Source of the DNA: Coriobacteriales bacterium | Lineage (GTDB): Bacteria > Actinomycetota > Coriobacteriia > Coriobacteriales > Atopobiaceae | Direction of reading: 5' to 3' | NCBI GenBank assembly: GCA_030529665.1 | Contig: JAUMWL010000008.1 | Location: 1 to 37,629 of the forward strand | DNA length: 37,629 nucleotides | Shown: one piece after another, positions 38 through 37,113 of the stretch | How positions within the stretch are numbered: position 1 is the stretch's first letter | Layout of the letters: every line of letters begins with the position of its first letter | Made by a program: the position numbers and the translations under genes | The notes under the pieces: generated by a model | Databases searched by the model: none | Told to the model about the DNA's origin: nothing | What the model saw: only the letters and a program-made list of their open reading frames with translations

Positions 38-2236
38 ATGACAAAAGTTACGCACGAATTCGACCTCTACGGCAAGCACTACACCCTCGAGTCCGGTGAG
101 CTGGCCAAGCAGGCAACCGGTGCCTGCTTGGTGAGCTGCGGCGATGCCACCGTAATCGTCACTACGGTCGTCTCAAAGGAGCGGAAGGACTACGACTTCT
201 TCCCCCTTACGGTTGACTTCATCGAGAAGATGTATGCGGTGGGCCGCATTCCCGGTGGCTACCTCAAGCGCGAGTCGCGCCCCAGCGAGAAGGCCACCCT
301 TACGGCACGCCTCATCGACCGTCCGCTGCGTCCCTCCTTCCCCGAGGGCTTCCGCAACGAGGTGCAGGTGGTGGCCACGCCGCTCGTTGCCGACCAGGTC
401 AATTCTGTGGACACCATTTGCGTAATGGGCGCCAGCGCGGCGCTCACCGTGGGCGGCGTGCCCTTTGAGGGTCCGCTTGCCTGCGTGCGCATCGGTCGCG
501 ACATAGCCACGGGCGAGTTCATTGTGAACCCCACCTACGAGGAGCGCGACCACTCGGACCTCGACCTTGAGCTTGCGGGCTCTGCGACCTTCATCTCCAT
601 GCTTGAGGCTGGTGCGAACGAGATCAGCGAGGAGGACATGCTCTCTGCCATGGCCTTTGGTCAGGAGGCGATCGCGGCCTTCTGCGAGGAGCAGAAGAAG
701 TTCTTTGCCAAGTTTGAGGAGGCAAACGGCGCGATTGAGGTTCGCGAGTACATCTTGGACGAGCCCATCCCCGAGGTACACGAGCGCGTCTTTGCTCACT
801 TCGACCAGATGAGCGCCGCTCTCAAGGATGCAAACAAGGCCGCACGCGTGGCAAAGGTGGAGGAGCTTAAGGAGGCCATCCGCGCGGAGTTTACGCCGGA
901 GGAGCAGCTGGAGTGGGCACGACCCATCACCGTGGAGCTCAAGTCGCTGGAGAAGCACGCCATGCGCCTTATGGTGGTAGAGACCGGCGAGCGCGTGGAC
1001 GGTCGCGTTGCCGACGAGGTACGACCGCTCATGATAAAGGCCAACTACCTGCCGCGCGTGCACGGCTCGGGCCTCTTCCAGCGCGGCCAGACGCAGGTGC
1101 TCTCCATCTGTACCCTTGGCATGCTCAATGAGTGGCAGCGCCTTGATACCATCGAGCCGGTGGACGGCAAGCGCTATCTGCACCACTACAACTTCCCGCC
1201 CTACTGCACGGGTGAGACGGGCCGCATGGGTGCGCCCAAGCGCCGCGAGCTTGGCCACGGTGCCCTGGCGGAGCGAGCGCTTCTGCCCGTCATCCCCTCC
1301 GAGGACGAGTTCCCCTATGCCATTCGCGTGGTCTCTGAGGTAATGGAGTCCAACGGATCGAGCTCCATGGCATCTACCTGCGGCTCCACGCTCGCGCTCA
1401 TGGACGCCGGCGTGCCGCTAGTGCGCCCAGTCTCCGGCGTCGCCATGGGTCTTATCCAGGAAGAGGGTAAGACCGTGGTGCTCACCGACATCCAGGGAGT
1501 CGAGGACTTCCTTGGCGACATGGACTTTAAGGTGTGTGGTACCACCAAGGGCATCACCGCCATGCAGATGGACAACAAGGCCACCGGCCTTACGCCCGAG
1601 ATCCTGCGCAAGGCACTCATGCAGGCGCACGAGGGTCGCATGTTCATCCTCGATGCCATGCTAGAGGCCATACCTCAACCGCGCGAGGAGACCAAGGAAT
1701 CCGCGCCAAAGATCATCTCGCTCACCATCCCCACCGACAAGATCCGCGAGGTAATTGGCTCTGGCGGCAAGGTGATTCGCGGCATCCAGGACGACACTGG
1801 TGCCACCATCGACATCCAGGAGGACGGCACGGTCTTCATCGCGGGCGTGGCCGAGGCGGCAACCGACGCCGCCGACCGTATTAAGGCCATCGTTAAGGTT
1901 CCCGAACCCGGCGAGGAGTACACCGGCCGCGTGGTTGGCATCCAGCCCTTTGGCGCGTTTGTGGAGCTTCTGCCTGGCAAGGACGGCCTGCTGCACATCT
2001 CGCGCATGGCCAAGGGCCGCGTAGAGAAGGTCGAGGACGTGCTGTCCGTTGGCGACGAGGTAAAGGTGCGCGTCCTCGAGGTTGACGAGAAGGGCAAGGT
2101 GAGCCTTGACCGCATCGACAAGCCCGAAGCGCCCGCAGCGGCAGGTGTCGAACGTGAGCCGCGCCCCAATCGTCGTACGCGCCGTCCGGGCGATGGCGGC
2201 GAGCGCAGGCCGCGCAGACGCCACGAGAATAACTAG
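38..2236 (+). CDS. pnp: Polyribonucleotide nucleotidyltransferase (PNPase)
   Basis: Phosphorolytic 3'-to-5' exoribonuclease of mRNA decay; the family forms a trimeric ring. Visible in order: first RNase PH domain (about residues 12-145, with [12 protein letters not shown] at 69-80), an all-helical linker, second RNase PH domain (about 320-540, with [15 protein letters not shown] and the acidic GDMD at 493-496 beside the catalytic site), a KH domain with its GSGG loop at 574-577, an S1 domain from about 625 to 693, and a short Arg/Pro-rich basic tail. The length of 732 aa is normal for the family. The ATG follows a purine-rich GGGAAAAG ribosome site. The gene stands alone here and is followed at once by two hairpins. 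Together with RNase J and RNase Y further on, the window carries three central RNA-decay enzymes. Identification is secure. Confidence 0.98.
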
Positions 2237-2311: not shown

Positions 2312-2321
2312 GCTTGGCAGC

Positions 2322-2501
2322 GTGCTGTGATCGCGAGCTGTGTGGCCCGCCCAACCGGATGCGTGCTGTCTTTGCGAGCAGTGTGGCTTACCGACCCTCA
2401 CTGGTCTCAAATACAGCACGTAACGTAGAGATAGACCCACACAGCTCGCGATCACAGCACACTCGATCCCACGCCACCCACACAGTTCGCAATCACAGCA
2501 C
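2322..2501. repeat. Inverted repeat array, 41-nt period type (array 1)
   Basis: Two 24-nt units in one orientation (2322-2345, 2363-2386), a 9-nt centre CTTACCGAC (2387-2395), then three units in the opposite orientation (2396-2419, 2437-2460, 2478-2501). Consecutive units are exactly 41 nt apart, as a 24-nt unit plus a 17-nt spacer. A unit reads GTGCTGT, about 8 variable bases, then GCTGTGTGG. Unit 1 is the perfect 24/24 reverse complement of 2437-2460, its symmetric partner about the centre. Spacers are unrelated. No coding function is seen. Array 5 (36942-37080) has the same geometry. Confidence 0.9.
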
Positions 2502-2815
2502 GGTTCCGCACTATCAATCCATACCGTCCAGGTGCCAGGTGTCAGTACCCTCCACCTTATTACCCCTTTTGCGTGGACCTATGTTCCATCGTGGAGTACT
2601 CGATGCCAAGGTCGGAGGAGAGCCCGCGAACGGTTAACTCGTTGCTGAGACCACGGATGGCCATGAGGAGCGTGTGCATGTTGAGGTCTGCCAAGGGAGG
2701 CTCCTCCTGTGGTCGGTGAAACGTTACGTGAATCATTGCAGAGCCGTGGAATGAGAGCTTGTGACACCGTTTGCGTTTCCGCAGGTAGAAGCCTTGCAAC
2801 CCAAAATGAGAGCAA
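2502..2815. other. Gene-poor stretch with a possible REP-like remnant
   Basis: Nothing firm. At 2528-2550 the string CAGGTGCCAGGTGTCAGTAC contains a short direct repeat (CAGGTG/CAGGTGTCAG) resembling repeat remnants seen near REP-type elements. This is only an impression. A short minus-strand reading frame (about 2560-2799) contains an AGGAGG-like site, but I cannot relate its product to any family. Confidence 0.3.
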
Positions 2816-3444
2816 ATGAGAGGTGTCCGACAAGCCCGCAGCCGTGCCAGCGTGGGCGTGGATGCCCGTTATCGCGATGAGGGATACCAAGGGCCCATTT
2901 TTCCGTGGCGTACGGTCGATGCGGATTTGATGATTAACCTTGACAACAGAATTAAGTCCGTGGTGTTCGAAGAAGGAGTGGTGCTGCCTCAAGACTGCAG
3001 TAATATGTTTAGCATGTGCGGATCGCTTGTGTCTGTTGACGCTTCTGGGTGCGATGCGTCAAACGTAGTCGACATGCGGGGATGTTATTGATGTGCAAAT
3101 CCCTTACCACGGTGTGTATTTCAAATTGGGATACGTCGAGCGTCAAGTATCTAGGTAGGTACGGAAGCTGGGGCGTGTTCTCGTACTGCAGCTCCCTCAA
3201 GTCTCTCGACCTGTCCGGGTGGGACACGTCGCACGTGGTGGATATGGACGAACTCTTTTATGCGTGCGAATTGCTGGAGTCCCTTGATCTCACTGGCTGG
3301 GACACGTCGCAAGTCGATGTCGATGGCTGGGGTAGAACGATGCACGACGAGTTCTGGCAACCTGGCGCCTTGGGAATGATGTTTGCCCGTTGTGATTCGT
3401 TGTCAGACACAACGTTTCTTCCCTCGGTCACAAAGTGCTGGTAG
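2816..3444 (+). pseudogene. BspA/DUF285-type leucine-rich surface protein relic, frameshifted
   Basis: Two overlapping frames encode successive repeats of the BspA-like DUF285 family, whose signature is an SLxSLDLSGWDTSxVxDM pattern. Frame 1 (2816-3091) has NMFSMCGSLVSVDASGCDAS. It then shifts to a second frame with CKSLTTVCISNWDTSSVK, SLKSLDLSGWDTSHVVDM and LLESLDLTGWDTSQV, ending at a stop at 3442-3444. The join needs a one-base change near 3079-3083. There is no signal peptide, and neither the usual N-terminal half nor any C-terminal anchor is present, so both ends are missing. Family members are large secreted or cell-wall proteins. Lying beside repeat arrays in gene-poor DNA, this reads as the decayed remainder of an accessory surface-protein gene. 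Confidence 0.75.
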
Positions 3445-3771: not shown

Positions 3772-4010
3772 TTTGCTGGGATCGGGAGCCTTGGCAATGG
3801 ATTTGCTGGAATGCGGATCAGTGACTCCAGGTTTGCCGGGATTGAGACCAGTGGCAATGTATTTGCTAGGTTTTGGAACTGTGGCGCTGAATTTGCTGGA
3901 TTTCAGATCTGTGGCACTGCGGTGGTGCCACAGCTCCAAAAATCAGCAAACGCCGCGCCACAGCTCCAAAAGTCAGCAAACCCGACGCCACTGGTCTCAA
4001 TCCCAGCAAG
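3772..4010. repeat. Inverted repeat array, 30-nt period type (array 2)
   Basis: Five 24-nt units start at 3772, 3802, 3832, 3862 and 3892, exactly 30 nt apart (24-nt unit plus 6-nt spacer). They read TTTGCTGG, a variable middle, then CTGTGGC or CAGTGGC. An 11-nt centre ACTGCGGTGGT (3916-3926) follows, then three units in the opposite orientation (3927-3950, 3957-3980, 3987-4010), starting GCCAC and ending CAGCAAA. The third forward unit matches the reverse complement of the third inverted unit at 22 of 24 positions, against 16 of 24 for non-partners. A further degenerate unit may follow to about 4040. The array lies between the surface-protein relic and the rnj promoter. Confidence 0.92.
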
Positions 4011-4196: not shown

Positions 4197-5858
4197 ATGG
4201 CAAAAAAGATGACGCCGCTCAGGGTCATCCCACTGGGAGGACTCGACGGCATCGGTAAAAACATGACTGTGTTCGAATACGGTGACGACATGGTTCTGGT
4301 TGACGCCGGCCTCATGTTTCCAGATGACGAGCAGCTTGGCATAGACCTCGTGCTTCCCGACTACACCTATGTGTTGGAGAACGAGGACAAGCTTCGCGGC
4401 ATCATAATCACTCACGGGCACGAGGACCACACAGGCGCGCTTCCGTACTTGCTCATGGACCTTCAGCCCAAGGTGCCCATCTATTCGAGCAAGCTCACGC
4501 TTGGCCTCATAGAGGGCAAGCTCTCGGAGCATCGCGTACGGTCGCCAAAGTTCCATGAGGTAGGCGACGGCACGCAGCTTACGCTCGGTGCGTTTAGCAT
4601 TGGGTTCTTCTCTATGACGCATTCGATCCCCGCCGCCCTTGGCGTGTGCATGAGCACGCCTGCCGGTACTGTGCTGCACACGGGCGACTTTAAGCTCGAT
4701 CAGACGCCCATAGACGGCAACACGCCCAACTACCTGGCCATAAACCATTATGCCGCCAAGGGCGTGGACCTGCTTTTGTCCGACTCCACCAATGCCACCT
4801 ACCCTGGGTTTACGCCCAGCGAGGCAGCCGTGGGTCCGGCCCTGCGGCACATAATAAAGAACGCGCCGGGTCGCGTGTTCGTTGCGTCGTTTGCCAGCCA
4901 CATACATCGACTCCAGCAGGTGTGCGACGCCAGCGTGGCGGTAGGCCGCAAGGTGGTGGTAACCGGACGGTCCATGGTCACAAACACGCGCATCGCCCGC
5001 GAGCTGGGCTATCTGCACATAAAGGACGAGGACATCATCGATGCCTACGAGGTGGACGACATCCCGGACGACAAGATCGTGGTGCTGTGCACGGGCAGCC
5101 AGGGCGAGCCGCTCTCGGCGCTTTCGCGCATGGCCAACGGCGAGCACAAGTCGCTGTCCATCACCTCGCGCGATACGGTAATAATCTCGGCAACGCCCGT
5201 TCCCGGCAACGAGAAGAGCGTAGCGGGCATTGTTAACGCGCTCTCAAAGATCGGGTGCTCCATCTACGACAAGAGCCAGACGCTGGTGCACGTGTCTGGT
5301 CACGGCAGCCAGGAGGAGCTCAAGCTCATGATCGCCATGGTAAAGCCCTCCTACTTTATGCCCGTGCACGGCGAGGCCATGCATCTGCGCGCCCACGCAA
5401 AGCTCGCGCGGCAAATGGGCTTACCCAAGGAGAACATCTTCCTCGCAGACAACGGCGACACGCTGGAGATGCAAAACCACAAGGTTCGTCTGGGCGAGCC
5501 GGTGGACTCTGGCGTGGTGTATGTGGACGGGCTTTCGGTAACGGACGCAGACCCCGTCGTCCTGAGGGATCGTCAGAAGCTCTCCAAGGACGGCATCGTA
5601 ACGTGCGTGGTAACGGTGTCGCATCGTTCGCACAGGACGCGCGACATAGAAATCTATAGCCGTGGCGTCTCGTTTGCAAACGACGACGAGCTCAACCGCG
5701 ACGCGCAGGACATCGTGCGCAATCGCATAGAAAAGAACACCGACGCAGACGTGGGTGTGGACCAACTACGCAGGGGCGTCCGCAACGGGCTATCCAACTT
5801 CCTTTGGAACCGAACACACACGCGCCCCATGGTAATACCGGTCGTCATGGAGGTATAA
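4197..5858 (+). CDS. rnj: Ribonuclease J
   Basis: Metallo-beta-lactamase/beta-CASP ribonuclease combining 5'-to-3' exonuclease and endonuclease activity, acting in mRNA decay and rRNA maturation. The di-metal motif HGHEDH is at residues 73-78, followed downstream by the beta-CASP insert, the HVSGHG motif and the FMPVHGE motif typical of RNase J, and a C-terminal domain. The length of 553 aa is standard. The ATG follows GAAAGGA. The stop codon directly abuts the ftsK start, so rnj heads the operon rnj-ftsK-rodZ-rimO-pgsA. In many Gram-positives this gene sits between dapA and ftsK; dapA is not present here. Identification is secure, but J1 versus J2 cannot be decided. Confidence 0.96.
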   Translation: MAKKMTPLRVIPLGGLDGIGKNMTVFEYGDDMVLVDAGLMFPDDEQLGIDLVLPDYTYVLENEDKLRGIIITHGHEDHTGALPYLLMDLQPKVPIYSSKLTLGLIEGKLSEHRVRSPKFHEVGDGTQLTLGAFSIGFFSMTHSIPAALGVCMSTPAGTVLHTGDFKLDQTPIDGNTPNYLAINHYAAKGVDLLLSDSTNATYPGFTPSEAAVGPALRHIIKNAPGRVFVASFASHIHRLQQVCDASVAVGRKVVVTGRSMVTNTRIARELGYLHIKDEDIIDAYEVDDIPDDKIVVLCTGSQGEPLSALSRMANGEHKSLSITSRDTVIISATPVPGNEKSVAGIVNALSKIGCSIYDKSQTLVHVSGHGSQEELKLMIAMVKPSYFMPVHGEAMHLRAHAKLARQMGLPKENIFLADNGDTLEMQNHKVRLGEPVDSGVVYVDGLSVTDADPVVLRDRQKLSKDGIVTCVVTVSHRSHRTRDIEIYSRGVSFANDDELNRDAQDIVRNRIEKNTDADVGVDQLRRGVRNGLSNFLWNRTHTRPMVIPVVMEV

Positions 5859-33200: not shown

Positions 33201-33625
33201 ATCGCCACCTGATGCGCGCGATATATGTCGATGCCACACACCACAACATCCTCGTTGTGGTACTCGTCGTTGCTCACCCTGCAAAGGGGAATCCAAGACC
33301 CTGCCTGTGGGTTTGCATGGAGCCTGCCCCTCTTGTCCAGATGGCCGGCCAGCATGAGCAAAGGCGCGCAGTGGCCACCGCTGAGTGCGCTTAGCGTCCT
33401 CAACGAGATTGCAACCGAAACGGTCTGTATGTCTGCTGCACCGGCAGAATTACGCAGGGCGGTACTAAAGACGCTCTTTGTAATTCCCTCGGGGATGCGC
33501 CCCAGACTGACGTCCTTGGACGATATTGACCAATAGGTGGAGGCATCGGCAAAGGACGCGTCGTTACCGCCCCCATAAGAGCTTGTTTCCGCAAGGTAGC
33601 GTATGGTTGACTCCGGGCAAAGCAT
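30299..33625 (-). CDS. Degenerate SF1 (UPF1/DNA2-like) helicase protein, probably ATPase-dead
   Basis: A 1108-aa protein whose order of blocks follows AAA_11/AAA_12 helicases. PPLTQDDQRAI precedes a motif-I position reading RTPKGTHAHRVS (296-307) where a GPPGTGKT P-loop is expected. A helical/coiled-coil insert spans about 430-590. The Walker B position DLVVVVSADKIEVPRG (698-713) lacks DEAS, followed by VLMGS where GDxxQ is expected. NQEILAFRNDL lacks the preceding HYR. Then come NVAEASAI, LAIVAPYEAQARLIRQTL (motif IV, well kept), LKDLKQETWPIVVLSA (motif V without QG), and VTACAARDSVVLFCG (motif VI without its Arg). The C-terminus (about 990-1085) resembles a winged helix. The frame is intact throughout, arguing against a pseudogene. 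The start has GGGAGGGA upstream. Confidence 0.65.
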   Translation of the reverse strand: MLCPESTIRYLAETSSYGGGNDASFADASTYWSISSKDVSLGRIPEGITKSVFSTALRNSAGAADIQTVSVAISLRTLSALSGGHCAPLLMLAGHLDKRGRLHANPQAGSWIPLCRVSNDEYHNEDVVVCGIDIYRAHQVAMSTLPDDGSWSVAVDRAIDLFDSVNELHDEELKEQGLRFDTNRCLMCLWPYADDVRAASGVLAACQGNQPQDDSSNDKDEAVRFSMPGALARLMASDATVQDAADDGTRDLTEDALITHKLVCGIPDHMPPLTQDDQRAIATVAMQKAPDVTVLRTPKGTHAHRVSIATLANAVTMHALRGDNMPALVCVAPQEDLESMASIISSRPSAGLVALTSRWLPRIDDIRGRHVAKTPEVRRILGPLGALLMYHAQGSNIVRGNNMAACLTKSSERMEEGTATKYADPWYTPRASTYYLDCVSSFVGNRIHTIEGAAASLSELLRHVDQDRCELIDSFAEVCKAWELHKQREGVIDGIKELRKEHASCKERLHIWEELQRSNPTRRRLFGRPQRTQAALIAEHAIEGEELALGCALFEDVCAAYRARVDRIEADLDRLRGASANLTRRMQPATIASRRCSELVGRLILDCGLDQEQGDALINLLEGKGTDVTLEALDTLLDQTVRPAEFWLAIHVYEARWLELCTQSADKESLSFWGNLCPIGFVPADTSVATLHAYLGADLVVVVSADKIEVPRGMALAAMTNQLVLMGSVSSLGTSPLWGKASDELQTTEAHGYDMWHELQRSRLAVSSGVSLFDYSQDLIRPACQGLADVDGANQEILAFRNDLMPSERVRLSPSAEGHEVAGGILPPLSYVLVPDSSWAQVGQNRHNVAEASAIKRWLGNHLDEIRDEYPHITHPLAIVAPYEAQARLIRQTLAAGWQHSDVIWDVVALKDLKQETWPIVVLSATCGPTALRNEGTISARTVLCVTACAARDSVVLFCGGAWLRSAEEVAIRTMRRALRVGRLFSSPRKRTKKPMAEPVGEVKPEPDLRALPVPLPTFIATLRERGDIGRMPPASLVVQALVKVGLLEKVEGQDGEEVFRPTAAGREVGIIAITDRAGNTSCAYSNESAPVLASLIDAMDDESQDFE

Positions 33626-33671
33626 TGGTCCCTCCCTCGTCTAGTGCGTATGCGCGACGATTTGGACCGAC

Positions 33672-33680
33672 ATTGTACCA
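33672..33680 (-). promoter_or_regulatory. Extended -10 promoter for the helicase-led block
   Basis: TGGTACAAT on the minus strand is a TGn extended -10, lying directly after the T-run of the terminator at 33680-33714 and about 47 nt before the helicase start. No good -35 is seen, as is common with extended -10 promoters. Confidence 0.5.
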
Positions 33681-33714
33681 AAAAACCCGCCCTTTGGGAG
33701 TGGTACCCAGCGGG
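33680..33714 (-). terminator. Intrinsic terminator of the MBG relic
   Basis: On the minus strand CCCGC, inner stem TGGG/CCCA, then GCGGG followed by TTTTTT. The U-run is immediate, so this is a textbook terminator. It still stands behind a gene that is no longer intact. Confidence 0.85.
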
Positions 33715-33751
33715 CGATGGGGATGCCCCTTTGCGTGGTTCCCCATCGCCC
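33712..33751 (-). terminator. 12-bp hairpin at the end of the MBG relic
   Basis: GGGCGATGGGGA (33712-33723) pairs perfectly with TCCCCATCGCCC (33740-33751). It precedes the U-run terminator. It resembles the other GGGGA/TCCCC hairpins of the window. Confidence 0.6.
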
Positions 33752-34811
33752 TTGTGAACTTGGAGGCGTTGTTGGGGGTGACGGTAACCTTTCGGCGCTT
33801 GATGGTAAAGGTACCTTCCTTGTAGTCGACCTCGTAGTTTCCCTGCGTCGTATTGCCCAAGGCACGCACGGTATACTCGCCTGCGTCCTCGCCCTTTTGG
33901 TGGGAAAGCTTGTAGGTGGCCGTATCCCCGTTGAGGGTGCCCTTTACCGTGGCGGTAAACTGGGGGTCCTTGTTGCCGAAGGTCTTGGAGCGGTTCTTTG
34001 CGGTAACGGTAACCTTCTTGCGGTTTATGGTGAGGGTGCCAGTACCAAACGCGACGGCATAGTTACCCTGAGACTCCTTGCCCGCAGCGTGGATGGCATA
34101 GTCGCCCACGTCTTTTTTGGGTGATGGTGAGCTTGTCTTTGATAAAGGTGACGTTGTAGTTGCCCTGCACTTCTTGCATTGTGTTCTTTATGGTGTAGGT
34201 GCCAACGTCCTCGCCTGGCGTGCGGGAGAGGTTGAACCTAATCTCGTCATTGGAGATATGGCCCCTGTCACCATTCCGTGCTTCGTACTCAACCTCAAAA
34301 TCGGGGTCCTCATCGCCATAGACCTTTTCGGCGTCCTTAATCGTAACGTCGACGGACCTCGGGTAGATGTCAGCCTTGGTCTCGGTCTGGGCCTTAATCA
34401 GCTTGGTTTTATCCAGGATTTCCATCTCCTGGGACACCAGCCATCGTACACCTTGCTCTTGGCCTCGATGCCGCCGTCAACGACGACCTCCCTAGGGGTG
34501 ATGGTGAGCGTACCGGTCACGAGCGTGTAGAGGGTCTCGTCCTTTGTTACGCGAACCGTACCGTCGGGAAGGTGCTCGCCTTCCACGTCGTCGAAGGTGA
34601 TGGGGTACTTGCCCACGTTCTGTACCCACTGTTGACTCACGTCACGGGTCGGCACGAATTCGGATGCCGGCGTGGTGGTGAAGTCAGGATCGCCATAGCC
34701 GTAGACCTTGGTCTAGTCGTCGGCCTTTACGGTTACGAGCTTGTTTGCGATGGCAAACCCACCCGTGAGCGTTTGGTACGCGACCTCATAGTTGCCCTGA
34801 ATCTTTTTTGG
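33752..34811 (-). pseudogene. MBG/YDG-repeat surface protein relic with several lesions
   Basis: Three or four degenerate MBG-type repeats (VYGDEDPDF, KTFGNKDPQF, QGNYEVDYKEGTFTIKRRKVTV) are spread over different frames. Lesions read on the minus strand: an in-frame TAG at 34713-34715 within the repeat KADD-stop-TKVYGYGDPDF; a frameshift near 34430-34440 after AKSKVYDG; and a frameshift with loss of most of one repeat near 34110, between KLTITQK and DVGDYAI. The N-terminal part is missing at 34811, exactly where repeat array 3 begins, and the C-terminal anchor is missing at the hairpin. Intact members are large adhesin-like wall proteins. Confidence 0.8.
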
Positions 34812-35109
34812 ATCAGTGGCGTGGCGTTTGCTGGCTTTCGGAGCAGTGGCAGAACGTTTGCTGGCTTTTGGACCAGTGACGCGGCGTTTGCTGGCTTTTT
34901 GACCAGTGACCCGGTCGCCGCGCCACAGCTCCTAAGGTCAGCAAATTCAGCGCCATTGGTCCAAATCTCGGCAAATCCAGCGTCACAGCCCCCAAACCCA
35001 GCAAACCTGGTGCCATAGATCTCAAATCCGGTTAAATCGATTGCCACAGGGCTTAATCCCAGCAAACGCCGCGCCACAGTCCCCAAACCCAGCAAACCGA
35101 ATCCCACAA
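34803..35109. repeat. Inverted repeat array, 30-nt period type (array 3)
   Basis: A truncated unit (34803-34820), then full 24-nt units at 34827, 34857 and 34887, exactly 30 nt apart. An 11-nt centre CCGGTCGCCGC (34911-34921) follows, then inverted units at 34922, 34952, 34982, 35012, 35043 (one extra base in the spacer) and 35073, with a partial unit running into the next gene's end. Unit ends TTTGCTGG and GTGGC or GTGAC are kept; middles vary. The array abuts the MBG relic on one side and the stop codon of the nuclease-like gene on the other. Confidence 0.92.
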
Positions 35110-36243
35110 TCACGAGTAGCGCGTGACGGGCGGAAGCATCCTCGATACCAGCACCGCTTGCCGATGCGCAAATTCCTCGTCCTTGAAAAGCCGTTGCAGC
35201 CTGTACGGCTCGAACTTCTTCCCGTTCTTCGCAAACTCATGCGCAAGCATCATGGCCGTTCGGTTGAGTGCGGACACACTCTTTACGTCGTCGAACATCA
35301 GGAAAAACGGCTTGTACCCGGAGCTCACGTAGTCCTGCATGCGGTTCTTGTCCTCCACGCGCGCGTCATGAGACGCATGGCCTTCATCACCCAGGTACTC
35401 AACGAGCGTTCGCAGCTCGGGCCATTGCAGGTCGGGGCGCAGCGAGCCCGAATGCTTCATGAGTATATTGCCTAGCAAATCATTTATCACGAGCTGCCTA
35501 TTTACGAGTGGTTCCGGCATCGACAGGCCGGCTAGACGAGGGGGAAGCGTAAAGGCGTGGTTTATGTAGGTCTCCATGGGAGAGCCCGACCCGTCGATTG
35601 CGAATTTCGCAACGTAGCGTGCCAGAGTAAGCCCGTCAAGCGAAGGGGCGGAGTCAAGAAAGTCTCGCATCTGTTGGAGGCTAGTAAACCGCTCACATTC
35701 TTTTAGATCATCAAAGCACGCGCGTCCCGTATGGGGCCTCAGAGGGTCTCGGGCATAACTTCCGCAAAACTCGCTTGCCAGCGCAATAAGACGAAGCTTC
35801 GCTTCGAGCTCTCCCATGCTCGACCTGGTGACTCGGTGCCGTAACTCTTCCGAAGCATGAATAAGGGCTAGCGGAGGTGCGTCTATTACCACTCGTGTGG
35901 ACGGATCAAGTTCGATTGCGTCTTTCCCGGTCCCGTTTGATAGTTCAAGGAACGCTCCATGGGGCACGTCTCTCGAAAGTATAGAGCACCTTACACCAGC
36001 AGTCCTTGTCCTTTCCCCGACGCTCCCAACAAGTACCTGCAAAGGATTCTTTGGACCAATATCCAGCCATGACAGCAGTTCGTCTATCCCGAGGTTTCCA
36101 AGAGAGCTCGTAGAGAGGCATGTGGGTTGAACACGTGTGTAGTCGCACGGAATGGCGGTCACTACGTTCTTTGCCCTTGCTGCCCTCAACAGCTTGATGG
36201 CATGACTTCCGGAAATATGTAAGCATCTTGTCTCCATGTTCAT
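35110..36243 (-). CDS. DUF559/Vsr-like nuclease-fold protein (tentative)
   Basis: 377 aa from the preferred start. Near the N-terminus ISGSHAIKLLRAARAK. In the middle EFCGSYARD and SPMETYINHAFTLPPRLAGL. At the C-terminus RPDLQWPELRTLVEYLGDEGH followed by D-x3-R and a GYKPFFLMFDDV strand. The last block matches the order D, E, H, DxxR, Gy of DUF559-type PD-(D/E)XK folds; the catalytic Lys position is Tyr. I associate such proteins with multicopy families in Coriobacteriia, where they resemble the nuclease or toxin-like halves of defence genes. The frame extends upstream to 36477 without credible coding character. It is flanked by repeat arrays 3 and 4. Function unproven. Confidence 0.5.
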   Translation of the reverse strand: MNMETRCLHISGSHAIKLLRAARAKNVVTAIPCDYTRVQPTCLSTSSLGNLGIDELLSWLDIGPKNPLQVLVGSVGERTRTAGVRCSILSRDVPHGAFLELSNGTGKDAIELDPSTRVVIDAPPLALIHASEELRHRVTRSSMGELEAKLRLIALASEFCGSYARDPLRPHTGRACFDDLKECERFTSLQQMRDFLDSAPSLDGLTLARYVAKFAIDGSGSPMETYINHAFTLPPRLAGLSMPEPLVNRQLVINDLLGNILMKHSGSLRPDLQWPELRTLVEYLGDEGHASHDARVEDKNRMQDYVSSGYKPFFLMFDDVKSVSALNRTAMMLAHEFAKNGKKFEPYRLQRLFKDEEFAHRQAVLVSRMLPPVTRYS

Positions 36244-36634
36244 ACCATAGCCTGAGTCAAGCCTACTGGACACATCTTTTTGATGCCACATAGCACCAAT
36301 CTTGCGCATATTTCGCACCATTCTCGCGGTTTCCAACGTTTCCGCAGGAATAGAATGGTGTTTAGAAATGCAATTCGTCGCGCGAGAACCTCCAATTCGC
36401 AAGAATAAGGTCAATAATCGCGTTCCCGGAGGCTTTTTATGCAAAGCCATGTTGGGACATGCGCGAACGTGAAGCAAACAAGTGCGCTGTCATTGCTTTA
36501 GTATTCTTTGGCCCGGTGCCATAACCTTCCGCCTTGGTCATGGGCAGTCACGACGAATCCGAGGTCAATCTCGGTGGTCCCAAAACACGCGTCGCGGGGC
36601 AAGATGGCGTGGTTCTGGTGTGTTATGGCGTGCG
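36244..36634. other. Intergenic stretch upstream of the nuclease-like gene
   Basis: No convincing gene. It contains a hairpin: CACCATTCT (36316-36324) pairs with AGAATGGTG (36352-36360), with an inner GCGG/CCGC pair. This could lie in the leader of the minus-strand gene. Base composition is more A/T-rich than the core genes. Confidence 0.4.
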
Positions 36635-36885
36635 TTTGCGGAAATTACGACCAGTGGCGAAGCATTTGGAACGGCGTTTGCTGACTATTGGACCCGTGGC
36701 AGAACGTTTGTTGGAATAACGATCAGTGGCATTCGATTTGCCGAGATTTGGACCTGCGACGCAGTGTTTGCTGAAATCAAGACCAGTGGCGCGGCGGTTG
36801 CTGAGAATTGGAGCTGTGGCGCGCCAGTACTGTCACAGCCCCAAAAGCCAGCAAATGCCGTGCCACAGCTCGCAAAGCCAGCAAA
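36635..36885. repeat. Inverted repeat array, 30-nt period type (array 4)
   Basis: Forward 24-nt units start at 36635, 36677, 36707, 36737, 36767 and 36797. A unit shortened to 6 nt (TTTGGA, 36665-36670) explains the first irregular step. The 11-nt centre GCGCCAGTACT (36821-36831) follows, then inverted units at 36832 and 36862. Forward and inverted arms are very unequal (seven positions against two). The string GTGGCAGAACGTTTG is shared with array 3, so spacers are partly conserved between arrays. Confidence 0.9.
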
Positions 36886-36926: not shown

Positions 36927-36941
36927 GGGACGGCCGATGGT

Positions 36942-37080
36942 GTGCTGTGATTGCGAGCTGTGTGGGTCAACCCACCCCGAGAGTGCTGTCTTTTGGAGCT
37001 GTGTGGGTCGGCAAGCCACACTGCTCGAAAAGACAGCACGCAATGGTCCGCTCAAGCCACACAGCTCGCAAAGCCAGCAC
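36942..37080. repeat. Inverted repeat array, 41-nt period type (array 5)
   Basis: Units at 36942-36965 and 36983-37006, a 9-nt centre GTCGGCAAG (37007-37015), then inverted units at 37016-37039 and 37057-37080. The step is 41 nt on both sides. The centre is the reverse complement of the centre of array 1 with one difference, so the two arrays are opposite-orientation copies of one design. The second unit contains CTTTTGGAGCTGTG, which is also found in the 30-nt type units and links the two subfamilies. Confidence 0.92.
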
Positions 37081-37113
37081 GCTACCGCGCCTTGAGCGCT
37101 ACCCGTAGGTTGA

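Follow-up and report, generated by a model that had tools for sequence, protein, structure and literature searches.

The array at positions 3772-4010 of the window, by which we mean the whole 37,629-nucleotide stretch analysed, is real beyond chance, and on balance its sequence is best read as a row of duplex-DNA sites for one sequence-specific putative protein. The left arm (3772-3915, plus strand) consists of five forward 24-nt units that start at 3772, 3802, 3832, 3862 and 3892 and follow a type II motif like TTTGCTGGGATTGGGACC[A/T]GTGGC. The 11-nt centre ACTGCGGTGGT (3916-3926) separates these units from a right arm (3927-4010, minus strand) of three reverse 24-nt units at 3927-3950, 3957-3980 and 3987-4010. 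Every step is exactly 30 nt and every spacer 6 nt in both arms, and the unit coordinates bear out the layout proposed in the initial annotation (five units, an 11-nt centre and three inverted units). As context, the gene for polynucleotide phosphorylase (pnp; 38-2236, plus strand) lies upstream, and an ORF for an RNase J-like protein (4197-5858, plus strand; translation inspected) starts 186 nt past the end of the array. The ORFs overlapping the array had no Pfam match.

The unit pattern, searched at up to one mismatch, gave 50+50 matches in the window's genome compared with 8+6 for the reversed control pattern, and the pattern for two units at a 30-nt step gave 14+15 compared with 0+0 in the control. 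The other copies repeat both the periodicity and the inversion point, and the arrays did not arise as relics of a single duplicated gene. Two further type II arrays were observed in the window. That at 34797-35096 has four forward units, an 11-nt centre (34911-34921) and six reverse units; its first forward unit (34797) and one reverse unit are degenerate, and it includes a single 31-nt step (35012 to 35043). That at 36635-36885 has six forward units, an 11-nt centre (36821-36831), two reverse units and one 42-nt step (36635 to 36677). These two arrays had been described as alike in unit, step and centre length, which holds overall, apart from the 31-nt step, the 42-nt step and the degenerate units.

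Arrays of type II and of a sister type, type I, were located across the genome with a position matrix. There are about 13 type II arrays, 12 of them with an 11-nt centre; one of the two arrays on contig C308 has a 66-nt centre instead. The arrays beyond the window lie on contigs C7, C30, C48, C72, C96, C181, C242, C273 and C308 (two), and type II pieces were also detected at contig ends. Type I numbers 15 arrays (two in the window and 13 elsewhere) with the consensus CGTGCTGTGATTGCGAGCTGTGTG, spacers almost all of 17 nt (step 41) and an 11-nt centre in 15 of 15 cases. The first type I array in the window (2321-2502), downstream of pnp, has two forward and three reverse CGTGCTGTGATTGCGAGCTGTGTG-like units, 17-nt spacers (41-nt step) and the 11-nt centre GCTTACCGACC, and the second (36941-37081) has two forward and two reverse units, 17-nt spacers and the 11-nt centre GGTCGGCAAGC. 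In all arrays, of both types and of their relatives, the units have one polarity and are directed at a single centre.

Several other features of the window were recorded. A 39-nt hairpin-like sequence at 2275-2313 (AAAGGGGACATGCCTCCCAGAGGTGTGTCCCCTTTGC) is terminator- or REP-like and has 95% identity to G012 and G008. The region 2500-3440 contains degenerate repeats (3030-3066, 3200-3236 and 3278-3314) whose sequence resembles that of a leucine-rich or DUF285-type repeat protein and which are probably what is left of a gene; the repeats at 3200-3314 were considered as an array and rejected, since they look like a degenerate repeat-protein gene. On the minus strand, a fragment of an MBG_2-domain surface protein (33564-34720) adjoins an array and is likely a pseudogene because of an apparent in-frame stop upstream of it, near 34713. 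A protein of about 400-455 amino acids with no Pfam match is encoded between two type II arrays (35110-36477, minus strand).

Related arrays were found in three congeners, G001, G002 and G015. Thirty array loci in G001 combine 24-nt units with 39-nt composites, in each of which a forward and a reverse unit overlap by 9 nt. G002, a near relative of G001, has two loci of the G001 kind and four loci of its own array version, with a centre of 10-11 nt. Nine arrays were observed at eight sampled loci of G015, and there the units abut (centre 0). A general two-unit pattern that detects the 30-nt step only was scanned against 398 genomes of the class, a sample with 11 of the 16 genus members, the remaining members being covered by stricter patterns. 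Matches numbered 48 in G000, 76 in G001, 17 in G015 and 7 in G002, and the remaining class genomes gave two or fewer each, like the control. Exact-pattern scans gave 29 single matches in the named genomes and two in viral contigs, numbers consistent with chance, and inspection of the two viral matches revealed no array. Matches to TTTGCTG in G011 were rejected as arrays, being 15-nt repeats without inverted partners that are probably coding. When the pnp-rnj region was used as a similarity query, both of its coding flanks turned up in most congeners, with no array there.

The spacings in these arrays fall into few classes. With the TGCTG end of a unit taken as its head, the gaps in five subfamilies from four species measure 5-7 or 15-18 nt (tail-head), 2 or 11-12 nt (head-head) and -9, 0 or 10-11 nt (tail-tail). 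Within a subfamily the tail-tail distance does not vary: it is 11 in all 13 type I arrays counted outside the window and in the two inside, 11 again in the 12 type II arrays whose centre is intact, and 0 in nine of nine in G015. A turn of B-DNA is 10.5 nt. When periods between 6 and 16 nt were scanned freely, with each distinct recurrent gap counted once per subfamily and a free phase for each class, the peak fell at 10.5 nt (score 0.916), and because it is broad (10.0 and 11.0 each score 0.90) the period should be taken as about one turn, not exactly 10.5. None of 4000 random draws reached this score, but the random model draws each gap independently, so the real significance is less extreme than that number implies. 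Spacers of equal length are mostly unrelated in sequence, except that some spacers within one array are copies and that spacer ends are part of the unit consensus. Lengths that are quantised in sequences mostly unrelated are the signature of a rotational constraint around B-DNA, and steps of about one or more whole 10.5-bp turns, combined with spacer sequences that vary, are what a helically phased array of protein sites would show. The suggestion of the initial annotation, that a 30-nt step is close to three turns of duplex DNA and could phase protein sites, is thereby strongly supported.

The centres at which the arms meet have sequence constraints of their own. When either orientation was allowed, type I centres shared the consensus GCTTGCCGACC and type II centres the consensus ACAACCGCAGC. 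Information content was 14.0 bits for the type I core (null 11.7, sd 0.3) and 12.6 bits for the type II core (null 9.4, sd 0.3), the null being obtained by shuffling the middle five bases. The reverse complement of the centre at 3916-3926, ACCACCGCAGT, agrees with the type II consensus. When the base at the centre was used to orient the G001 composites, their arms too proved unlike. The core is asymmetric within a dyad of sites and usable in either orientation. The centre sequences in the window had been described as different, which is correct only in part: across the family, an asymmetric consensus read in either direction is shared, and the array at 3772 fits it, while the two other type II arrays of the window fit it poorly.

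The tabulated arrays lie between predicted genes, whatever the orientation of these; many are no more than about 100 nt from a 3' end, and most are at least 70 nt from a start codon. These locations come from a simple gene caller, and the few ORF overlaps were taken as over-calls or start-codon errors. Arrays turn over fast and in a lineage-specific manner. Two G001 array sites have no array at the orthologous positions in G002; one array is kept between these genomes with a single difference, and another measures 371 bp in G001 and 87 bp in G002. The near absence of the arrays from close relatives indicates that they are dispensable. At locus L263 (G002 C4:9800-10600) a different nested palindrome (ACCGTGCGCACAAATCGGCCATTTGTGCGCACGGT) stands at the position where G001 has an array, perhaps as another repeat family at the same intergenic site.

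If the units are protein sites on duplex DNA, each 24-bp unit would be a separate asymmetric binding site, with sites three turns apart (30 bp) in type II and four turns apart (41 bp) in the sister type. At whole-turn distances bound proteins would all lie on one face of the helix, where they could touch, and their binding would be cooperative; with two rows pointing at the conserved asymmetric 11-bp core the complex would be bipolar, its assembly perhaps nucleated at the core. Such a complex might organise or insulate intergenic DNA, or serve the spread of the repeat itself. This proposal has several weaknesses. The evidence for the period comes from a handful of length classes in each subfamily, and some of these classes may go back to single events; phased binding by itself does not call for strict polarity; and a neutral repeat that spreads by copying at constant lengths could give rise to some of the same features. 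No array-binding protein was found, and the Y1 transposase loci inspected lacked arrays. A broader suggestion, which we make tentatively, is that the arrays represent a new class of chromosomal nucleoprotein element with bipolar asymmetric sites in helical register, an asymmetric core, a dedicated co-evolving protein and intergenic spread within the genus. Were this so, the dedicated protein would co-evolve with the species-specific unit versions.

Some copies have demonstrably been carried by another element. A longer repeat encloses at least nine of the type II copies, and the complete carrier copies on C273, C96, C308 and C72 have the TIR CAGGACGTACG(C/A)A and a 9-bp TSD. The left and right TSDs, given on the contig strand, are CCCTTTGCT and CCCGTTGCT in C273, CCGCACCAG and CCGCACCAG in C96, and GTGTTACAC and GCGTTACGC in C72; in C308 they are of the GGGCCAGGC type and identical. 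A MITE in G008 has the same ends as the carriers and a 9-bp duplication around another interior. Members of this MITE family in G000 and G008, with TIR and 9-bp TSD, were placed at L061:1068-1440, L059:7373-7750, L062:7632-7932, L058:6103-6389 and L126:1500-1808. The family also occurs with an array-free interior (C55), and no autonomous partner was seen. Similar TIR ends were noted at L105 and L107 (G000 C241 and C306) beside another inverted sequence, of the GCGCCATTTCGG...CCGAAATGGCGC type, that seems to represent a different foldback interior. A scan of viral contigs for the TIR gave 16 single matches.

These carriers lend weight to a neutral or selfish origin, in which the array is a minisatellite-like foldback spread by MITE transposition and slippage, with no bound host protein and with fixed lengths that reflect copying, not selection. 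The absence of arrays from the two orthologous sister-species sites and the length difference of 371 versus 87 bp fit such an origin, and repeat-bearing MITEs are known (BrickBuilt, PMC4596501). The carriers exist, yet models of their flanks gave no match to any of the window's three type II arrays, and the flanks of type I and G001 arrays are unique, with none shared. In one species the MITE serves as a vehicle for some copies, but it does not define the array, and it was rejected as the whole explanation. Type II units are about 75% alike; likeness is no greater within an array than between arrays (20.2 versus 20.3 of 24 for type I, 18.0 versus 18.0 for type II), nor is it greater for adjacent units of one arm, which means that the units do not stem from recent tandem copying. 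Spacer lengths, moreover, stay on 10.5 nt as spacer sequences vary. A neutral or selfish origin is accordingly judged unlikely.

An arrangement of ordered, inward-facing sites of about 24 bp, variable in number and with lineage-specific copy number, also recalls transposon ends. The ends of Tn7 and Mu carry arrays of TnsB or MuA sites, several of about 22-24 bp, set at ordered spacing and in opposite orientation on the two sides. The arrays share with them several sites of about 24 bp, the inversion between two sides and the ordered spacing, and the units could be conceived as sites for a transposase of this kind that flank a minimal core, in a micro-element moved in trans. We consider this quite improbable. 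Past the unit the outer ends have no conserved terminal sequence such as Tn7 and Mu ends have, and no obvious target duplication was seen by eye; the two sides of an array are at most 11 bp apart; the carrier MITE has a different TIR; and no cognate transposase was found.

Movement of the elements as REPs or BIMEs by a RAYT (REP-associated tyrosine transposase) is very doubtful. The arrays are extragenic, with dozens of copies in both orientations, and 15 of 16 congeners have Y1 transposase genes, many of them RAYT-like in length; arrays, however, occur in four congeners only. The unit TTTGCTGGGATTGGGACC[A/T]GTGGC is not a self-complementary hairpin, and only the 39-nt composite of G001 is palindromic, with arms that under-match. 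Around those Y1 loci of G000, G001 and G002 that were inspected, motif searches gave no flanking unit array, and an informal look at the unit consensus revealed no GTAG or CGTC tag. At L331 in G001 (about 2455-2700), a RAYT-like Y1 gene seems, as read from the translation, to be preceded by a different short repeat, the hairpin-like GGGACAAAGGGGACTGTCCC, which is a candidate REP of that transposase.

Finally, the inverted arms could pair into a long broken helix and act as RNA or as extruded DNA, as the initial annotation had considered in proposing a rod of 24-bp helices. The 24-nt units and equal spacers of both arms suit such a rod, and the array at 3772-4010 can indeed fold as RNA (-128.5 kcal/mol, z -10.5 versus shuffles), which must hold for any inverted array. 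There is no sign that the pairing is selected. Left unit i matched right unit i at 20.25 (type I) and 18.39 (type II) of 24 positions, with no excess over the baseline from other arrays (20.27 and 18.03), and the 17-nt spacers of opposite arms showed no complementarity (6.35 versus 6.96 of 17). Arm complementarity in the G001 composites was below chance (z -4.0) in a profile search, and again (z -4.1) when the composites were located with their 13-nt core alone; arrays of G015 and G002 showed no excess arm pairing. The arms are unequal (5/3, 4/6 and 6/2), nothing about a rod with internal loops would call for a 10.5-nt quantisation, and the whole window had no match in Rfam 15 at the gathering threshold. 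Given neither a pairing excess nor a likeness between neighbours, the arms are neither held by pairing nor fresh tandem copies, and each unit looks like an independent site kept to a motif. The lack of compensatory changes between arms and the under-matching in G001 speak against an RNA or cruciform rod, which was rejected on these covariation tests and has very little probability left, and in favour of phased sites on duplex DNA. CRISPR was dismissed, as the units vary where CRISPR direct repeats are near-identical, the spacers are 6 nt (unique and about 25-40 nt in CRISPR) and the second half is inverted.

We know of no described element that combines non-palindromic sites in helical register with a common polarity and an asymmetric core. 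A search of the open-access literature found none, and within that literature the initial annotation was right that no element with such a layout has been described. REPs are single palindromic hairpins of 20-40 nt that bear a tag and have a cognate RAYT; in BIMEs the orientation alternates (PMC2817692, PMC3116915, PMC3733652). Like REPs, BIMEs and REPINs, the arrays are extragenic, lineage-specific and present in many copies, and form regularly spaced composites that are proposed protein sites (PMC2817692, PMC3116915, PMC3733652). Unlike REPs and BIMEs, they have non-palindromic units in same-orientation runs that meet at an asymmetric core, are spaced in helical turns and do not lie beside the Y1 genes inspected. 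Foldback and Galileo of Drosophila likewise have inverted arms of internal repeats around a centre, with variable arm length, but are eukaryotic and much longer, and their repeats are the terminal inverted repeats (PMC3573991); here the TIR that carries arrays is outside them and unrelated, and many arrays have no TIR. BrickBuilt of Porphyromonas gingivalis is a MITE with a 23-nt minisatellite of direct repeats and resembles the arrays as a bacterial, intergenic MITE with short tandem units inside, variable in number between strains; the excerpted account mentions neither bipolar arms nor a fixed core nor helical spacing, and, compared with BrickBuilt as described there, most arrays here are free of any MITE (PMC4596501). 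Were an array-binding protein found, the arrays would offer a natural series of architectures (three turns, four turns and three core spacings) for the study of cooperative assembly and repeat spread. Bacterial interspersed repeats are usually explained as hairpins; here the spacers of four species share one 10.5-nt ladder, which turns a repeat family into a geometrical, testable prediction about a protein-DNA complex.
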